A stretch of DNA of 30,004 nucleotides. Source: a virus. The stretch's first letter is position 1, and every line of letters begins with the position of its first letter. A program made the position numbers and the translations under genes. Positions 6,861-30,004 of the stretch are shown piece after piece. Location of the stretch: IMG/VR virus record IMGVR_UViG_3300025122_000097, positions 1-30,004 of that record. One strand, written 5' to 3'. The notes below the pieces were generated by a model, which saw only the letters and a program-made list of their open reading frames with translations, ran no database searches and was not told where the DNA came from.

Positions 6861-8633
6861 ATGGCCGATGAATTTTCACAAAGAAAGTTGAAACAAGAGT
6901 TCACGGATTATGTGATCCAAAATGAATCACGTTCTCGTAAGATTCTTGGTGCTATCGGTGATCTATCTGATACAACAGAATCACTGCTCAAGTTAAAACA
7001 GGAAGGTGATCTTCATGGACCAAAAGGTACTAAAGGAGATCAAGGGCCTCAAGGAATAAAAGGTGAACAAGGAACTGATGGCCCTCAAGGTGAACAAGGA
7101 CCGCAAGGAGACAGTATTACTGGTCCTCAAGGCCCCCAGGGAGCCACAGGAACCCCTGGGGTAGATGGAAAGGAAGGTAAGGCTGGAGAGCATGGAATCA
7201 ACGGAGAGAACGGAGAAATGGGACCAATGCCAAAACACGAGTGGGATGGTGCAAGACTGCGATTTCAACTTGATGAAGAGAAATGGGGTGATTGGATCAC
7301 ACTTGCAGACTTCAATAATGGTGTCGTTTGGGCAGGAGACAGGAGTATTGAGGTTCGTGACGGGGGGACAATCGTCTCAGGAAAGATCAGGACGTTGAAT
7401 TTCGATGGTCCTGATTTTGTTGTAACGGCAGATGGATACACAGCAAATATTGAACTGGATGGATCTGCCTATGATGCTATTTATGCAAGATTAGACTGTA
7501 CCAACCAACCATTTACAGGAGATGTAGAGGTTAATGGAGTTCTTACAGAGAATGGAGCTAATGTCTACACAGTATTGCAGACAACACGTGATTTTTACGT
7601 GAATGGTTCTACAGGATCTGATAGTAATGATGGACGAACAGCATTAACACCATTCCTTACTATTCAAAAAGCGATGGATGAGGCTGGATTTCAGGCCAGT
7701 AATGACCAAACTATCATTAATGTAGCGGCTGGAACCTATACTAGACCTAACGTTGTTGTTCCTAAATATGCTGTTGGTGAAATTCTTGTTTTAGGTGACA
7801 GAACAACACCAGCAAACGTAGTAGTAGATGGTCGTTTAGATTTAGTTGAAACAAATACTGCATTTACTCATGAACACAATGCAGCACTTTTGGTAATAGA
7901 GGGGATAACCTTTCATAGATATTTTAGGGGTGTTGAGCAATCAGGAACAAATGCTGATATTGGTGGGTGTGCTTTTACTGAAGCTGGTAGAGGTGCAAGT
8001 ATCTCAGAAACAAGTACCGTTGAGTTTTTTGATAATGGTGTTTACAACACAACATTTGATGGAGAAACAACCTTTGGTGTTGGTTGGTTTGTAGTTGCAG
8101 CGACCCATTCAACGGCTACTGTTAGTGATGATATTATTGCAACAAATGTTGCTAGATTCATGAATATTCAATCATTTTCCAGAGGAGTAGTCTCTCTCGG
8201 ATATGACTTAAATATTACACATTTATCAACAGCATTCCCAGCTACATTTTTTATCTCAGGCTCAGATATTTTTATTGGGGGTGGAGATATAATTGCAGAC
8301 GGTAATAATGCTGTACCCGTAGGTGAAAGTTCATTTATGATATTTGGTAAAGGTTTAAATACAACTTCTTTAATTGGTGGTAGCACGTTCACATTAAATG
8401 ATTTTGATTACGTGTTTAACCAAGGATCTAGTACAATTGGAATAACTGATTATACAGATGACAGTACACACACATTTGTATTGACGAATGTTAATAATAC
8501 AATTAAGGCTACCGCAGGATCATCTGGTGCGGATTCAACATCTTTGATTGCACAAGGAGACCTAGAATTGGTTCAAAAAGGTTTCGATACTAGTGTAATT
8601 TTGACCCAAAAAATAGCTTATTTTAATCGATAA
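6861..8633 (+). CDS. Tail fibre with collagen-like repeats and right-handed beta-helix
   Basis: A 590-residue protein. Residues 1-50 are helical. About 53-121 are Gly-X-Y collagen-like triplets (GPKGTKGDQGPQGIKGEQG onwards) with one break at GDSIT. Residues 121-146 (GPMPKHEWDG, RLRFQ, WGDWI) are the short module that often follows collagen repeats in phage fibres. From about 245 (FYVNGSTGSDSNDGRTALTP, LTIQKAMDEA) a pectate-lyase-like beta-helix runs to about 560, and the end is a strand-rich cap. It should form a trimeric fibre or spike. No clear glycosidase catalytic pair is visible, so enzymatic activity is open. Confidence 0.87.
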   Translation: MADEFSQRKLKQEFTDYVIQNESRSRKILGAIGDLSDTTESLLKLKQEGDLHGPKGTKGDQGPQGIKGEQGTDGPQGEQGPQGDSITGPQGPQGATGTPGVDGKEGKAGEHGINGENGEMGPMPKHEWDGARLRFQLDEEKWGDWITLADFNNGVVWAGDRSIEVRDGGTIVSGKIRTLNFDGPDFVVTADGYTANIELDGSAYDAIYARLDCTNQPFTGDVEVNGVLTENGANVYTVLQTTRDFYVNGSTGSDSNDGRTALTPFLTIQKAMDEAGFQASNDQTIINVAAGTYTRPNVVVPKYAVGEILVLGDRTTPANVVVDGRLDLVETNTAFTHEHNAALLVIEGITFHRYFRGVEQSGTNADIGGCAFTEAGRGASISETSTVEFFDNGVYNTTFDGETTFGVGWFVVAATHSTATVSDDIIATNVARFMNIQSFSRGVVSLGYDLNITHLSTAFPATFFISGSDIFIGGGDIIADGNNAVPVGESSFMIFGKGLNTTSLIGGSTFTLNDFDYVFNQGSSTIGITDYTDDSTHTFVLTNVNNTIKATAGSSGADSTSLIAQGDLELVQKGFDTSVILTQKIAYFNR

Positions 8634-22243: not shown

Positions 22244-22266
22244 AACCCGTCCTTGCGGCGGGTTTT
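22244..22266 (+). terminator. Intrinsic terminator after the SSB-like gene
   Basis: AACCCG (22244-22249) pairs with CGGGTT (22259-22264), with inner pairs possible in TCCTTGCGG, followed by TTTTG. It directly precedes the next promoter. Confidence 0.75.
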
Positions 22267-22293
22267 GTATTTGGGATAAAATCGTGTTACAAT
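22265..22293 (+). promoter_or_regulatory. Candidate promoter before the compact RNA
   Basis: TTGTAT (22265-22270), 17 bases, TACAAT (22288-22293) with TG one base before it (extended -10). Predicted start at about 22300, just before the hairpin RNA. It lies right behind the SSB terminator. Confidence 0.6.
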
Positions 22294-22299
22294 TTGTTT

Positions 22300-22397
22300 G
22301 CGTAAATCACATGATAGAAAACTCTTTTGTCTTCAAGGCGGAGCCTAGCTCCACGGCACATGTGAGCCGACGCACCTTGGGGACAAGAGAGTTTTTT
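22300..22397 (+). ncRNA. Compact three-way-junction RNA ending in a U run
   Basis: Bases 22318-22338 pair with 22375-22395 as 21 continuous pairs, including three G-U pairs on the plus strand. At the tip are two hairpins: GGAGC/GCTCC (22340-22344/22348-22352, loop CTA) and CGGC/GCCG (22354-22357/22366-22369). The 3' strand runs into TTTTTT (22392-22397), so the stem itself acts as an intrinsic terminator. An extended -10 promoter is placed to start it at about 22300. It may be an independent small RNA or an attenuator leader for the replication genes that start at 22459. No known family is recognised. Confidence 0.65.
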
Positions 22398-22458
22398 AAT
22401 TCAAAATGAAGCGAGTAAGCTTCGACCGAAACCATAATCGCCGGAAGGCAAGTACTAT

Positions 22459-22929
22459 ATGAAACACTTTTCAATCACAGGAGCTTTAATAGCCAAAGAC
22501 TTTATTGTTGACGCCATCGCAAACGAATGGCAAATCGAGATAAGGGGGTCTGATGGTAAGAAGCTGCTGGTTGTTTTTTATAAAGGAACTTGGGGAATCC
22601 AAGATCCTAGTTCAAAAGATTATTTCCAAATGTATGATGCACCAGACATCATGAGCACACCACACACAATTGGGTTGTGTGAGTTTGATGATGTACTCAA
22701 ACCAAATCCACTATGGGTAAGTTTTGCCAAGGAGAGGCTTGCGTTCCACAATGCAAGCACAAACGGGACTGTTGTAACCAGCTCACAATTAGACAATCTT
22801 GATTGTAGGGTGATTCCAGCAAGAGTAATGACTGACCTCATTTACTCAATCCTCCATGATATTGAGTCTGTTCATGTAGTATCGAAACACAGAAATGGAA
22901 CTATAAAGAATGGATCTATATCAGCATAA
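22459..22929 (+). CDS. 156-residue early protein, unknown
   Basis: Starts at ATG 22459; GGAAGG 10-15 bases upstream is a weak SD-like tract. It is a mixed alpha/beta protein (DFIVDAIANEWQIEIRGSDG, KKLLVVFYKGTWGIQDPSS) with Cys at about 73 and 116. No nucleotide-binding or zinc motif stands out. First gene after the compact RNA and directly before the DnaB/RecA-like ATPase, so it may be a replication accessory protein or a target of the leader RNA. Not recognised. Confidence 0.7.
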   Translation: MKHFSITGALIAKDFIVDAIANEWQIEIRGSDGKKLLVVFYKGTWGIQDPSSKDYFQMYDAPDIMSTPHTIGLCEFDDVLKPNPLWVSFAKERLAFHNASTNGTVVTSSQLDNLDCRVIPARVMTDLIYSILHDIESVHVVSKHRNGTIKNGSISA

Positions 22930-22933
22930 AAAT

Positions 22934-23851
22934 ATGGAGGAGAATAAACCAACACAAGATGAAAATTTAGAGCTTCTCAAACTTCGAGATGCAGGTCAAC
23001 GAGCTATGGCCGAATACTTAGCTCTAAGACCGATCAAGGTTGGTATTGCTGAACTGGACGAGGTGCTGGAGGGCGGTATAGAGCAAGGAGATTACTACTT
23101 GTTCATCGGAGCATCAAAATCAGGTAAGTCAACTGTGCTTAGAAATATAGGTTTGACACTAGCAAAGAAAAGCCCCGTTCTATACCTAAACTTCGAGCAA
23201 CTTGGGAGAAATGTTTTCTCAGCACTTTACAAGTTAAGGACAGGCCGAGCGTTTAGAGACGATATCGCAGAGAACCAAGACATGACGGACGACGAGATTC
23301 AACGGTTCCCAGACATTCCTTTTTTCATGGCTTTTTGGGCGGATACAATCAAAAGCAAGTCGTTCAACAAAGAGATCACCGTAAACCTAAAGAGGTCAGT
23401 TGATGTTATTACAGAGATGGAAGGCGAAAGACCAGTGATTATCTTCGAAAACTTATCAGACGTTTATAACGAAAGGATTAGAGGGTCGGACAATGTGGAG
23501 AACGTAGCTTCCCAAACAATCATGGATATTAAGAACTTCTGCAAAGATAATGAGGTCGCTATGTTTCTCGCTCATCACACCCCTAAGTTAGGTGGTCAAG
23601 CACCCACAGTAGAGAACGGCAGGGACTCCAACAGAATAGCCGACATGGCTCACAGCATCTTCGCATGTCATGTGGTTGAGGAAGAAGGGAAGGACATGTA
23701 TGGCTATGAAACAGTAGAGAAAACACATATACTATCGTATTTGAGAGGTAGGTCATCCCAAGACTCAAAGAAGTGGTCGATTTCATTGAAAAATGACGGT
23801 GGTTTTGACTTGACCAAATATATCAAGCCCAAGAAGGCTGGCAAGAAATAG
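22934..23851 (+). CDS. RecA/DnaB-like ATPase (replicative helicase or loader)
   Basis: Start chosen at ATG 22934, four bases after the previous stop; ATG 22910 would add eight residues and overlap the previous gene. The 305-residue product has Walker A GASKSGKS at 59-66, the VLYLNFEQL strand at 82-90, Walker B VIIFEN at 168-173 and AMFLAHHTPKLGG at 209-221 (sensor-like). A DSNRIADMAHSIF segment and RGRS (271-274, possible Arg finger) follow. This order matches the C-terminal ATPase core of DnaB/RepA helicases without an N-terminal domain. It is the first gene of a cassette with an initiator and a primase, so it is probably the helicase. Confidence 0.78.
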   Translation: MEENKPTQDENLELLKLRDAGQRAMAEYLALRPIKVGIAELDEVLEGGIEQGDYYLFIGASKSGKSTVLRNIGLTLAKKSPVLYLNFEQLGRNVFSALYKLRTGRAFRDDIAENQDMTDDEIQRFPDIPFFMAFWADTIKSKSFNKEITVNLKRSVDVITEMEGERPVIIFENLSDVYNERIRGSDNVENVASQTIMDIKNFCKDNEVAMFLAHHTPKLGGQAPTVENGRDSNRIADMAHSIFACHVVEEEGKDMYGYETVEKTHILSYLRGRSSQDSKKWSISLKNDGGFDLTKYIKPKKAGKK

Positions 23852-23852
23852 T

Positions 23853-24536
23853 ATGAAGTTTATTAAATACTATCAATGGGTCGCAAAGAATAAGGACTTA
23901 TCCACAATGGAGAAGCTGGTTTATTGTGCGCTAATCAGTTATCAGGGCAGCAACGAGACGTGCTGGCCAGCTCAACAAACCCTCGCCAATATCCTCGGAA
24001 TCAGCAAGCCGACAGTTTATAGAACCATCAAAAACCTTGAAAAGCTAGGTTGGGTAGGAGTTAAGGTGTTTGGACATGGAAAAACCAATAGATATAGGTG
24101 TTTAATGACCAACCTTAGTCAGCGTGACTATAATAGTCAGGCTGAAGGGGCTTGTAGTCAGCCTGATGTGCAGACCTTAGTCACTGTGATGTCCAACCTT
24201 AGTCAGCCTGATGTGCAACCTACATCAGAGAGACTATCCTTAGTAGTAGAAGAAGATAAGACCAACCAACCTACCAACCTATTAGAGGGGGTTGGTAGGG
24301 AGGTAGGTTGGTTAACTTCCCAGAAAGAGATCGAGAGGTTGACGCATTATAAAGTTACGAAAGCAGACGAAGCGTCTCTTAGATACATCGACAGTAAGTT
24401 CAGCAAGGAACAAATCAAACCGATACTCATGGAAGTGATCGATGATTGGGATCTCAAGCTGAATACGGATAGAGGGATCGATTCGATTCCAAGAGTAGTG
24501 GCTTATCGATTAAGACAGGCGTATGGAAAATCTTGA
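23853..24536 (+). CDS. Replication initiator with N-terminal helix-turn-helix
   Basis: A 227-residue protein. Residues of about 15-70 form a winged helix-turn-helix: LSTMEKLVYCALISYQG, CWPAQQTLANILGISKPTVY (recognition helix about 50-60) and a wing KVFGHGKTNRYR. This is the HTH_36/RepA-like start of many phage initiators. A low-complexity linker (about 86-150) follows, then a C-terminal helical domain (SLRYIDSKFSKEQIKPILME). As in lambda O, the linker-coding DNA holds repeats that look like initiator-binding sites (24117-24217). Two bases after the helicase gene; it overlaps the primase gene by 14 bases and ends TGA. Confidence 0.8.
   Translation: MKFIKYYQWVAKNKDLSTMEKLVYCALISYQGSNETCWPAQQTLANILGISKPTVYRTIKNLEKLGWVGVKVFGHGKTNRYRCLMTNLSQRDYNSQAEGACSQPDVQTLVTVMSNLSQPDVQPTSERLSLVVEEDKTNQPTNLLEGVGREVGWLTSQKEIERLTHYKVTKADEASLRYIDSKFSKEQIKPILMEVIDDWDLKLNTDRGIDSIPRVVAYRLRQAYGKS
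24117..24217. other. Iteron-like repeats, candidate replication origin
   Basis: Five copies of AGTCAGCCTGATGTGCA or close variants begin at 24117, 24135, 24156, 24179 and 24201 (steps of 18, 21, 23 and 22 bases, about two helix turns). Two copies (24156, 24201) are identical over 17 bases. They encode the low-complexity linker of the initiator, as in lambdoid phages. Confidence 0.65.
24264..24313. repeat. Nested inverted repeats beside the iterons
   Basis: AACCAACCTACC (24264-24275) is fully complementary to GGTAGGTTGGTT (24302-24313). Inside, CCTACCAACC (24270-24279) pairs with GGTTGGTAGG (24290-24299). The two foldings share bases and so exclude each other. It lies 46 bases after the iterons in the same linker region. 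Confidence 0.8.
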
Positions 24537-25644
24537 GAAAATCAAAGAGGATTTATATATGATAAACGTCTTTCATGCAGGCGGTATGAGCTTTGCTGCT
24601 AAAGATATGTTGTTTCAGGTAGTGGCTGATTATCAGGAGAAGAGTGATAAGTTATTCAGCTTTGCTATTAAGTTCTTAATTGAGACTGCTTTACCGAAGA
24701 TTAAGGGTAGGAAACCAAGACCTATACCAAGAGATGTGAAGATAATGTTGCAGCTAGAGGACGAGGAGATAACTTGGAGCGAGTGGTTAGAGTTCTTTCC
24801 AGGATCAAGTATTGAGATGATGGAGGATAAGCAGGGTGGCAGAACTGGCTTCTTGACTAAGGAAAAGTTGGGGAGGTTGCGACCAGATGATTTTCTTGAA
24901 GATAAGACTGGGCTGTTCTATTCACCGAATGGATTTAACGATGAAGTTAGGGAGGGGATGAAACGAAAGAGGGAGCAAGGCAATATCAAATCACTTAATG
25001 CTTTCTTCATCGATCTTGATAAAGCACCGACGAAGGAGTTGAAGGATGCACATCGTCGAACGATTGGAGAGTTCAGTATAGCTCCATCGTTCGTGGTCGA
25101 GACGAGAAATGGTTTTCACGTTCTGTGGCTCTTAGAGCGTTTGTATGGTGCTGAAGACAGTATGAGGTGGAAAAGTATCCAGAAGGGTCTTATAGCTCAT
25201 TTTCAGGCCGACAGGGCGTGTTCAGACTCGTCACGTCTATTGCGTATGCCGAGTTCGTGGCATTGCAAGAGATTGTGGGTAGGTGGAGAGGCTTTCAAGG
25301 TCAAGTTGGTGTATCGCAGTAAGATTCGATATACGATGGATGACTTTAGAGCTTTTGAGTCAAAACAAAAGCCAAGAAAGGTTTTTGAAATGAAGGAGGG
25401 AGAGGTGGTTATTCCACCAAACGCAGCATTAGGGAAGGGTGATCGCCATGCAGCGTTGAAAGAAGAAATCGCTAGAGCTTATGCAAGGATTGGCACGAAT
25501 AGAGAGTTAGCACCGAAAGTGAGGGGTGAAATGAAGACTTGGTATCAAGCGTCTTGTATAGACTTGAAGCCTCATTGGGAGAAGGAGGTGGACGATTACT
25601 GCGATTGGGTAACATTAAACCAGTTTGGAAATAAAATAAGCTAA
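24523..25644 (+). CDS. Archaeo-eukaryotic-type primase (RepB-primase-like)
   Basis: A 373-residue protein. A helical N-terminal region (1-80) is followed by the primase core: LNAFFIDLDKAPTKEL (Asp164, Asp166, the metal pair), SFVVETRNGFHVLWLLERL (His199) and ACSDSSRLLRMPSSWHCK (Asp235, Arg238, Arg241). This D-x-D ... H ... S-R-L-x-R-x-P order is that of AEP/RepB primases of plasmids and phages. The C-terminal part (GKGDRHAALKEEIARAYARI) may contact the helicase. It starts inside the initiator gene. It probably primes synthesis at the nearby iteron origin. Confidence 0.78.
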   Translation: MENLEKIKEDLYMINVFHAGGMSFAAKDMLFQVVADYQEKSDKLFSFAIKFLIETALPKIKGRKPRPIPRDVKIMLQLEDEEITWSEWLEFFPGSSIEMMEDKQGGRTGFLTKEKLGRLRPDDFLEDKTGLFYSPNGFNDEVREGMKRKREQGNIKSLNAFFIDLDKAPTKELKDAHRRTIGEFSIAPSFVVETRNGFHVLWLLERLYGAEDSMRWKSIQKGLIAHFQADRACSDSSRLLRMPSSWHCKRLWVGGEAFKVKLVYRSKIRYTMDDFRAFESKQKPRKVFEMKEGEVVIPPNAALGKGDRHAALKEEIARAYARIGTNRELAPKVRGEMKTWYQASCIDLKPHWEKEVDDYCDWVTLNQFGNKIS

Positions 25645-25691
25645 TATTTGAGGTATAGTAATCTTAAAAACGAGATAACCAAAACAAACAT

Positions 25692-26069
25692 ATGGCGAGT
25701 AAAAGAACAGCTTCGCAACGGGGTAAAGCTAATAGACGCCGTGGACACCAGTTCGAAAGAGAGGTGGCAATTGATTTAAGAGCAGTTGGCTTCCATGATG
25801 CGAAGAGACATCTTGAGTATCAGAAGGAGGAAGTGGTCGGTGTGGATATCGATAACACCGGTCAATTCAAGATACAGTGTAAAGCAAAGAATAATTCTCC
25901 TAATATCCCAGCGGTATTCAAGGAGATCAAGCATGATAAAGACAACGACATCCCTGTCGTAGTGTTTAAGGTTACGAATAAGGGAGAATATGCGTGTTTT
26001 AAGTGGGAGGATGCACAAGTATTGATGGCCTGGCTTCACGGGTTTAGCAAAGACGAAAGTGGAAAATAA
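25692..26069 (+). CDS. Holliday-junction-resolvase-like nuclease (PD-(D/E)xK)
   Basis: A 125-residue protein. Basic start (SKRTASQRGKANRRRGHQFE), then Glu22 in the first helix, a strand with Asp52 (VVGVDIDNTG) and Q-x-K at 62-64 (FKIQCKAKN). This is the E...D...[EQ]xK nuclease core of archaeal Hjc-like resolvases and related phage proteins. It would cut branched replication or packaging intermediates before terminase acts. Between the primase and terminase genes; a weak TATAGT -10-like box lies about 35 bases before the ATG. Confidence 0.72.
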   Translation: MASKRTASQRGKANRRRGHQFEREVAIDLRAVGFHDAKRHLEYQKEEVVGVDIDNTGQFKIQCKAKNNSPNIPAVFKEIKHDKDNDIPVVVFKVTNKGEYACFKWEDAQVLMAWLHGFSKDESGK

Positions 26070-28296: not shown

Positions 28297-30004
28297 ATGG
28301 CTAGAGCACCAGGCAAAACAATTGTTAACAAAGCTCTCCAAGCCGTTACATCCACAAAATCATCTTATAAGGCCATGAACGCTAAGCGTCGTGAGCAACT
28401 TGCTGAGATTTACAGGGAGGTAATGAGCTATGCTGGAGAAAAGCAAGCTGATTGGAGTTCAACACTCAAAGTCAACTTTGCAAACCAGATTGAATCACTC
28501 GTTACTGCACGTTTAACAGCAAAGAACCCAAAGTTCATTGTTTCATTACGTCAGAACACTGATGCAATCGTTGATCGTTACTTTAAAGTATCGAAAGAAC
28601 CAGATGCAGACGCAGGACCTCAAGAGGTTCTAGAGTTTGAACAGAAGAAATTAGAAAGAGAAAAGTTTAAGACAGAAGTCGACAAGTGGTCTTCTGCTGT
28701 TCAGGATTATCTGAACTTTGCTTTTGATGAGTATGGCTTCAACGCTAAGATTCGTCAGGGAGCTAAATCACTTGTGCGCTATGGAAATGTTTATGGAACC
28801 GTAGACTACAAGCATGACGTGTTTCGAAAGAAACGTGATGGAAAGATTGAAGAAGTAAAAGCAGATGAATACCCAGCCTTAGAGATTGTGTCATGGACAG
28901 AGGTTTATCTTGATCCACGGTTTATCCAGGTGTCTGATGCTCCATCTGTTATCTGGGAGCATGACAAGGTACGACTCGGTGAACTCTATGCTCAGAAGGA
29001 AGACCTATTCCACCTTGATAAGATCAAGCTCATCAACTCAAATGAGTTCAATTCAGAGAGGCAAGAGATTTATCAGCTCATGATTACCTCAGCAACGACA
29101 GGTGAAACAGAGGCAAAGAATGTTAAGTACCTCACGATTGATAAGTTCTACGGATATTTTAATCCTACAAAGAACCCAGAGAACGAAGGTATCTACGAGA
29201 TCTGGACAGTGAATGACGCTATTGTCATCAAGGTTAAAGAGATCCCACGTATTCCAGTGCACAGTGCAGGTTGTTTCGAAGATGTAGAGCAGCATTACTC
29301 CATTGGATACATCGAACCAATCCTTGGCTTACAGAGGGAGTACAACTTCAAGCTGAACAGTGCTGTTGAGTACATCAACCAGTCACTGAATCGATCATAT
29401 ATGTGGGACCCTAATAGTGGTGTTAATCCAAAGACACTATCTAACCTTGGTCCAGGATCAATCATTCCAGCAACAAAAGGAATCGAGAACGCATTAACAG
29501 GTGTACAAGAGATTCCACATCGAGACATTAACCAGTCTTATTTCGCTAATAGCAACGAGGTACGTCGAGACATGCAGTCTCTGACCTTTACGGTCGATAC
29601 CACAGCTCCTACATCCACACAGGGCTTTACAAACACTGCTACGGCTGTAAGGGCTAGGTTCTTTGAGAGTAACGTCATGTACTCGGATACCCTCAAACAC
29701 TATGAAGAATTCATCGTCAGACTCGCTTACGACATGCTCGACGCCATCGCAGAGAATGCGAAGGAAGACATCATCATCGCAAAGATGGGAGAAGGAAGGT
29801 TTAAATGGGCAAACAAAGAAATCTTTGAGGATGCACCGTTACGTTACGCTATTCGTGTTGAAGTTGGGTCTAGTAGTTTTGACACTATTGAGAATCGGCG
29901 TGAAGACGCTCTTGCATTCTGGACTGTACTTAAAGAAGCTGCTGCGGCGGGCGCTGATGTTGATCTCAACAAGGGCGTTGAAGAAATCATTAGATCATTC
30001 GAAA
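28297..30004 (+). CDS. Portal protein (N-terminal 569 codons; completes at 1-329)
   Basis: ATG one base after the terminase stop (TAATATGGC). The open frame reaches the window end and rejoins at base 1 in phase, for 632 residues in total. The N-terminal region has ANQIESLVTARLTAKNPKF; the centre has LVRYGNVYGTVDYKHDVFRK, EIVSWTEVYLDPRF, and IGYIEPILGLQREYNFKLNS. The end has TATAVRARFFESNVMYSDTL, all typical of podovirus portals. The 12-mer portal ring would be the procapsid nucleus and DNA channel. Shadow ORFs on both strands are ignored. Confidence 0.9.
   Translation, partial: MARAPGKTIVNKALQAVTSTKSSYKAMNAKRREQLAEIYREVMSYAGEKQADWSSTLKVNFANQIESLVTARLTAKNPKFIVSLRQNTDAIVDRYFKVSKEPDADAGPQEVLEFEQKKLEREKFKTEVDKWSSAVQDYLNFAFDEYGFNAKIRQGAKSLVRYGNVYGTVDYKHDVFRKKRDGKIEEVKADEYPALEIVSWTEVYLDPRFIQVSDAPSVIWEHDKVRLGELYAQKEDLFHLDKIKLINSNEFNSERQEIYQLMITSATTGETEAKNVKYLTIDKFYGYFNPTKNPENEGIYEIWTVNDAIVIKVKEIPRIPVHSAGCFEDVEQHYSIGYIEPILGLQREYNFKLNSAVEYINQSLNRSYMWDPNSGVNPKTLSNLGPGSIIPATKGIENALTGVQEIPHRDINQSYFANSNEVRRDMQSLTFTVDTTAPTSTQGFTNTATAVRARFFESNVMYSDTLKHYEEFIVRLAYDMLDAIAENAKEDIIIAKMGEGRFKWANKEIFEDAPLRYAIRVEVGSSSFDTIENRREDALAFWTVLKEAAAAGADVDLNKGVEEIIRSFE
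29867..30004. repeat. Right copy of 138-bp terminal direct repeat
   Basis: Matches bases 1-138 except T at 29878 for C at 12. It lies in the portal gene and indicates a closed genome of about 29,866 bp. Confidence 0.95.

Follow-up and report, generated by a model that had tools for sequence, protein, structure and literature searches.

A compact three-way-junction RNA ahead of phage replication genes recurs with the same architecture in unrelated sequence

We describe a compact structured RNA of about 98-100 nt on the + strand of a phage genome record, at positions 22300-22398 of IMGVR_UViG_3300025122_000097, upstream of DNA-replication genes. The whole 30,004-base IMG/VR record was analysed and is referred to here as the window. 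We favour the reading that this is a real RNA made from its own promoter, namely a terminated, end-locked leader with read-through to the operon behind it, and put the probability of that reading at about 0.5. The fold, its base pairing, the presence of the same fold in unrelated sequence, its location and the absence of a gap, or of any promoter-like site, that could serve a separate downstream promoter were all computed.

RNAfold gave -45.0 kcal/mol for 22295-22400 (z -6.39), whereas shuffled sequences averaged -23.7 (sd 3.3) and 0 of 200 did as well; for 22300-22398 it gave about -43 to -45 kcal/mol (features are given in Table 1). A preliminary description, made from the letters of the sequence, had claimed a 21-bp continuous stem with two small hairpins at its tip and six T at its end, and this is borne out. 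The long stem, P1, consists of 24 uninterrupted pairs when G-U pairs and the U-run are counted in, and it carries P2 and P3 at its tip, the latter with a CGGC/GCCG stem and an 8-nt loop made up of A and CATGTGA. The same description had read the element as a structured RNA, which is upheld by helices kept in different letters elsewhere, by the better fold of the + strand and by a plausible promoter; what it overlooked is the diagnostic two-part pairing of the leader with the P3 loop and the junction. The leader sequence TCACATG is the exact reverse complement of CATGTGA in the P3 loop (beta with beta'), and GCGT is the reverse complement of ACGC in the junction (alpha with alpha').

Table 1. 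Parts of the RNA and its surroundings in the window.
Feature	Position	Strand	Basis
Intrinsic terminator of the upstream 152-aa gene, 8-bp stem AACCCGTCC..GGCGGGTT then T	22244..22266	+	Terminator scan; unchanged in L002
-35-like TTGTAT, 16 nt before the -10	22266..22271	+	Sequence
Extended -10, TG-T-TACAAT (TG 22285-22286, hexamer 22288-22293)	22285..22293	+	Sequence
Alpha, first 4 nt of the predicted transcript (GCGU), complementary to J3/1	22300..22303	+	MFE of the transcript ending at 22376; alpha test
Beta, leader UCACAUG, complementary to the P3 loop	22307..22313	+	Sequence complementarity
P1 5' arm	22315..22338	+	RNAfold, architecture comparison
P2 hairpin GGAGC-CUA-GCUCC	22340..22352	+	RNAfold, architecture comparison
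P3 hairpin CGGC-A-CAUGUGA-GCCG; beta' = 22359-22365	22354..22369	+	RNAfold, architecture comparison
J3/1 junction ACGCA; alpha' = 22370-22373	22370..22374	+	Fold comparison, alpha test
P1 3' arm with U6 at 22392-22397, putative intrinsic terminator	22375..22398	+	Sequence, RNAfold
Putative 18-codon ORF (MKRVSFDRNHNRRKASTI*), begins 8 nt past P1 and overlaps the following start codon (ATATGA)	22406..22462	+	Read from sequence
First gene behind the RNA, 156 aa, no family match	22459..22929	+	ORF, profile searches
DnaB/primase-helicase-like ATPase	22910..23851	+	Profile matches
HTH_36 / O- or DnaD-like replication initiator	23853..24536	+	Profile matches

Copies of the architecture were found in other phages. 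Three are strong (the window, L002 and L039) and all belong to one terL clade; one is probable (L236) and one loose (L215). L002 (IMGVR_UViG_3300006753_000027) matches the window at ~99% identity along most of its length. The identity stops at window position 22273 and resumes at 26033, and the swapped replication module, window 22274-26032, has sharp borders. In place of the window's replication genes, L002 has a primase-polymerase-like protein and an AAA ATPase, and in the same slot it has an RNA of unrelated sequence and equal architecture (z -6.0), reading AAGACACGATTGGTTAGTGGAT-[CTGCC-TAAG-GGCAG]-A-[CGGTT-ACCCCAAAA-AACCG]-AATGC-ATCCACTGACCTATCGTGTTTT. Its leader TTTTGGG forms 7 bp with the loop CCCAAAA, and GCATT, further upstream, forms 5 bp with the junction AATGC. 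The two RNAs have no helix sequence in common except the outer part of P3, and when a covariance model was built on just the window copy, it found the L002 RNA in register, scoring 28.9 bits on the + strand and 10.2 bits on the - strand.

L039 (IMGVR_UViG_3300024520_000231), a relative that reads TGA as glycine, was found by a leader-blind fold scan of related records. It has a 25-pair P1, a P2, a P3 of the form GATCAAC-TC+GTAGTGTG-GTTGATC and a T-rich tail; that its leader CACACTAC forms 8 bp with the P3 loop was noticed after the fold scan had found it. L236 (IMGVR_UViG_3300038361_000191), a probable fourth member from a distant phage, has its RNA at 7070-7190, identical in G071, and was the top match of both scan types in its batch. 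The entire P3 loop TATCATCA is paired with the leader TGATGATA, and the entire junction CAGTT (CAGUU) with alpha, AACTG (AACUG); the alpha pairing was noticed later and not used to find L236. L215 (8292-8395) is a looser variant: P3 is missing, and 12 nt of leader pair with the tip. The compensatory base changes in homologues on which the preliminary description had staked its reading are present, every helix being kept with different letters in other phages. Since the same fold is built from entirely different letters in related viruses, the shape itself is preserved.

P1 is 21-25 bp long in the main copies. RNase III sites of about two helical turns, the length of P1 in the window, L002 and L039, lie between T7 early genes, and P1 might likewise be a dsRNA processing site that frees the downstream mRNA. 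This would leave alpha and beta unexplained, and P1 of L236 is 13 bp followed by a bulged 9 bp; we regard such a role as improbable.

Beta pairs with the flush 3' part of the P3 loop over 7, 7, 8 and 8 bp in the window, L002, L039 and L236, respectively. Alpha pairs with J3/1 over 4, 5 and 5 bp in the window, L002 and L236 and weakly in L039; three of the four copies thus have the first 4-5 nt of the predicted transcript paired with the P3-P1 junction. For beta the chance p was 0.011-0.014 per copy in dinucleotide shuffles of the leader (three copies). For alpha it was 0.019 in the window, 0.005 in L002 and 0.014 in L236, and in L039 alpha was not significant (p 0.24, leader shuffle). A descriptor of the whole architecture scored 45.2 in L039, 39.6 in the window, 37.8 in L002 and 33.5 in L236, against a null maximum of 33.5, with none at or above 37, in 22.2 Mb of random strand-sequence. 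The score of L236 is no better than the best random match, and the support for this copy comes from its intergenic position, its fold score and its alpha pairing. Rival high scorers were mostly in coding frames, and L275, L067/L239, L132 and L269 were rejected as lying inside long reading frames. A chance hairpin with chance leader complementarity, to which the p of around 0.01 for each pairing alone might lend itself, is hardly credible when the same architecture occurs in unrelated sequence in the same slot and three copies exceed the 22 Mb null.

In all five copies the + strand folds 6-8 kcal/mol better than the - strand, as expected of an RNA with G-U pairs. This, together with the kept promoter spacing, argues against a DNA element such as a replication origin, hairpin or recombination site, which we consider very improbable even though the site is at the edge of the exchanged replication module. 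The likely origin is moreover a separate inverted repeat in the initiator gene, and the replication-origin reading of the RNA was rejected. That repeat, ACCAACCAACCTACCAACC..GGTTGGTAGGGAGGTAGGTTGGTTAAC at 24261-24315, is itself a candidate replication origin inside the O-like initiator gene.

The preliminary description had an extended -10 promoter starting the RNA a few bases before the stem, and the motif was found by reading the sequence, with the start placed at G22300 by the -10 rule (hexamer, 6 nt, then G). Neither the extended -10 nor TTGTAT is in the list of a stricter consensus promoter scan. The same spacing from -10 to +1 is seen in L002 (TATAAT-N6-G5244) and L039 (TAAACT-N6-G7322). 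Alpha begins at or beside the base predicted as +1 in the window, L002 and L039, and in the window and L002 the predicted +1 is the first nucleotide of alpha.

At the other end of the RNA, a stem is followed by a U-run as in an intrinsic terminator: P1 with U6 in the window, and T-rich tails in L002, L039 and L236, although the U-run of L002 (UUUUAGUUUAU) is weak. In place of the usual short loop of 3-8 nt the tip is a 36-nt branched domain, which is nonstandard for a terminator loop. The P1 hairpin is not listed by the intrinsic-terminator scan because that scan admits only 3-8 nt loops. T-runs of at least 4 are found upstream of only 4 of the 24 window genes; therefore, the U-run is not merely generic upstream sequence.

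All copies precede a gene on the same strand, and in 3 of the 5 phages the RNA is directly before replication genes. In the window the module behind it comprises a DnaB-like ATPase, an HTH_36/O-like initiator and a RepB-type primase. The gene behind the RNA of L236 is a NUMOD3/HNH endonuclease, not a replication gene, and that of L215 is a short Cys-rich, possibly HNH-like ORF with no Pfam match. The gap from RNA to start codon is 7-20 nt in L002, L039 and L236, and in the window 8 nt to the mini-ORF and 61 nt to the gene. The consensus scan of the window lists no promoter-like site between the RNA and the gene. In L002 only a few nucleotides separate the U-run from the start codon of the primase-polymerase, with no room for another promoter, and therefore the primase-polymerase gene must be transcribed through the RNA. 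Given this lack of room and the close start codons, we take the RNA to be the leader of whichever gene follows.

This passage through the RNA in L002, and the same-strand gene behind every copy, weigh against reading the element as a phage 'moron', namely a small RNA gene that has a promoter and terminator of its own, acts purely in trans or by binding a protein, and stands before replication genes only incidentally. Moreover, no target was found in the phage's own genome, where no long antisense match was conspicuous and the best others are distant and rich in G-U. Such a gene would nevertheless account for the own promoter and sealed ends, for the variety of downstream genes (helicase module, primase-polymerase, HTH_36 initiator, HNH endonuclease) and for a shape that is kept while the sequence is free, as expected if a protein reads shape. 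We consider it possible but doubtful.

The start codon close behind P1 in the copies read is also what a cis-only attenuator or 5' UTR would show, with the leader helix and the P1 fold as alternative states that choose between termination and read-through, or with P1, beside the start codon, blocking or guiding translation. When the window transcript ends at 22376, before the 3' arm of P1, the leader helix is the best RNAfold structure and P3 is broken; in L039, alpha' overlaps a P3 strand. A Shine-Dalgarno-like site is present in only 1 of the 24 window genes and starts follow AU-rich sequence, so that AU-rich leaders may serve translation. However, the leader helix and P1 share no bases and hence are not in direct competition, unlike the states of ordinary attenuators, and there is no ligand-like conserved sequence. 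An RNA acting only in cis in this way is therefore unlikely.

For the terminated, end-locked leader that we prefer, we infer the start site, termination, stability and attenuation as follows. Transcription would start at 22300, and during synthesis beta would pair with the P3 loop and alpha with the P3-P1 junction. The 3' arm would then zip P1, and the polymerase would stop at the U-run and sometimes read through. In the finished RNA the 5' end would be hidden in a two-part pseudoknot at the three-way junction, while P1 would close the 3' end. Pairing of the 5' end into junction and loop, and of the 3' end within P1, should make both ends resist decay. The majority of transcripts would persist as a stable small RNA, which might also act in trans on a protein or an RNA, and read-through would feed the operon behind it, in the window the replication genes. 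By a rough geometric estimate beta and P1 may be formed together, with P3 and beta stacked and folded back along P1 and the linker as a bridge. Whether alpha, beta, P3 and the full P1 all coexist was judged by geometry only; they may do so, or alpha and beta may be a transient intermediate that times the formation of P1.

The RNA was not found in most of the related phages scanned, and therefore the clade can do without it. No copy was present in six sequenced phages that have related terminases or Sak4 proteins, and prophages in genome contigs yielded no clear relatives. When the requirement was relaxed to a leader pairing at whatever tip a long stem might have, the scan stayed within its null; another scan, of long-stem terminators and controls, was suggestive but no more. 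The window core ACGGCAC-N7-GCCGACGCA has 47 exact matches in IMG/VR, none with a P1 or leader match, showing that the core letters are no family signature. The covariance model from the window copy was tied too closely to its sequence to be useful for searching records, and there is no multi-member model because MAFFT could not register the copies.

Two other types of fold were seen in these phages. On the - strand of L227, at about 7490-7585 (also in L228), there is a 26-bp leader hairpin with a strong fold whose loop pairs over 13 bp with the sequence just behind it, an element of the knotted or alternative-hairpin type. The strongest fold of the clade is a hairpin with long G and C runs, at about 14671 in L044 and about 366 in L003; a hairpin of this type is absent among the top folds of the window.

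Lastly, the terminase relatives bear on the host. TGA occurs at conserved glycines in L020, L014 and L018 (for example PPGS*KT in L020), and it is read as glycine (genetic code 25) in these three and in L039 and L215. This is the code of Gracilibacteria and Absconditabacteria (PMC10746230), and the TGA=Gly relatives point to these groups as hosts for the terminase clade. The window uses the standard code, with TGA a rare stop (4/24 genes), and its terminase matches Terminase_6 families. As both code types are reported in predicted phages of Gracilibacteria and Absconditabacteria (PMC10746230), a host from the candidate phyla is plausible for the window phage. BLAST coordinates against L005 imply a ~138-nt terminal direct repeat in the 30,004-base record (1-138 and 29867-30004), and the record may therefore be a complete, circularly assembled genome.

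The preliminary description knew no family that matched the shape. In agreement with this, Rfam 15 searched at gathering scores gave 0 matches for the window; there was no match to the L002 element and none at E<=1 in L213 and L215, and the best sub-threshold match in L001 was mir-727 at 23.4 bits against the 104 needed. Judged by Rfam and a limited, non-exhaustive literature search, the architecture is apparently undescribed. We tentatively propose a new class of phage non-coding RNA, defined by shape alone, in which a two-part pseudoknot would draw the RNA's own 5' end into a three-way junction and the stem would be closed by the 3' end. The class would work as a bacterial counterpart of exonuclease-resistant RNAs, occurring in phages of which some infect TGA=Gly candidate-phyla bacteria, and exchanged with replication modules. 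Sequence-based family searches would be blind to such a class, and more members may be hidden in phage genomes. The way to find them is to look for leaders that pair with the tip of a long stem rather than for conservation of sequence. The interest of the element is that a structured RNA of a little-known phage group keeps its shape while sharing no sequence, and that no Rfam family includes it; should the end-locking prove real, it would offer a testable design for highly stable RNA in bacteria and for controlling the replication operons of phages.

Among known systems, flaviviral xrRNA has a three-way junction with two pseudoknots, one between the 5' end and the junction and one from a hairpin loop. 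The likeness is one of working only, and exonuclease resistance of the window RNA is conjectural; unlike xrRNA, the window RNA has both pairing partners 5' of P1, is encoded by phage DNA, has a U-run and has no Rfam match. The pRNA of phi29 is likewise a phage three-way-junction RNA of conserved shape and variable sequence. However, its loops kiss between molecules and it acts in packaging, whereas the pairing in the window RNA is intramolecular. A packaging-RNA reading was rejected, with no Rfam match and with replication genes as neighbours. In the C4 antisense RNA of phages P1/P7 and relatives (RF01695), a long basal stem closes hairpins. Like C4, the window RNA would be a small phage RNA at a transcript 5' end that regulates the genes behind it, but the complement of its loop is in its own 5' leader and no loop pair matches a downstream ribosome-binding site. 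A C4-type loop complementary to the downstream translation start is absent, TCACATG occurring nearby only in the leader (22307), and RF01695 was not among the Rfam matches of the window, L001, L002, L213 or L215. Lambda 6S RNA is not known to have such a fold, and HK022 put RNA consists of two hairpins one nucleotide apart, not within a terminator stem, with no leader pseudoknot. The window RNA resembles lambda PR'/6S RNA and HK022 put RNA in being short, in starting at a phage promoter immediately ahead of an operon, and in the importance of read-through.
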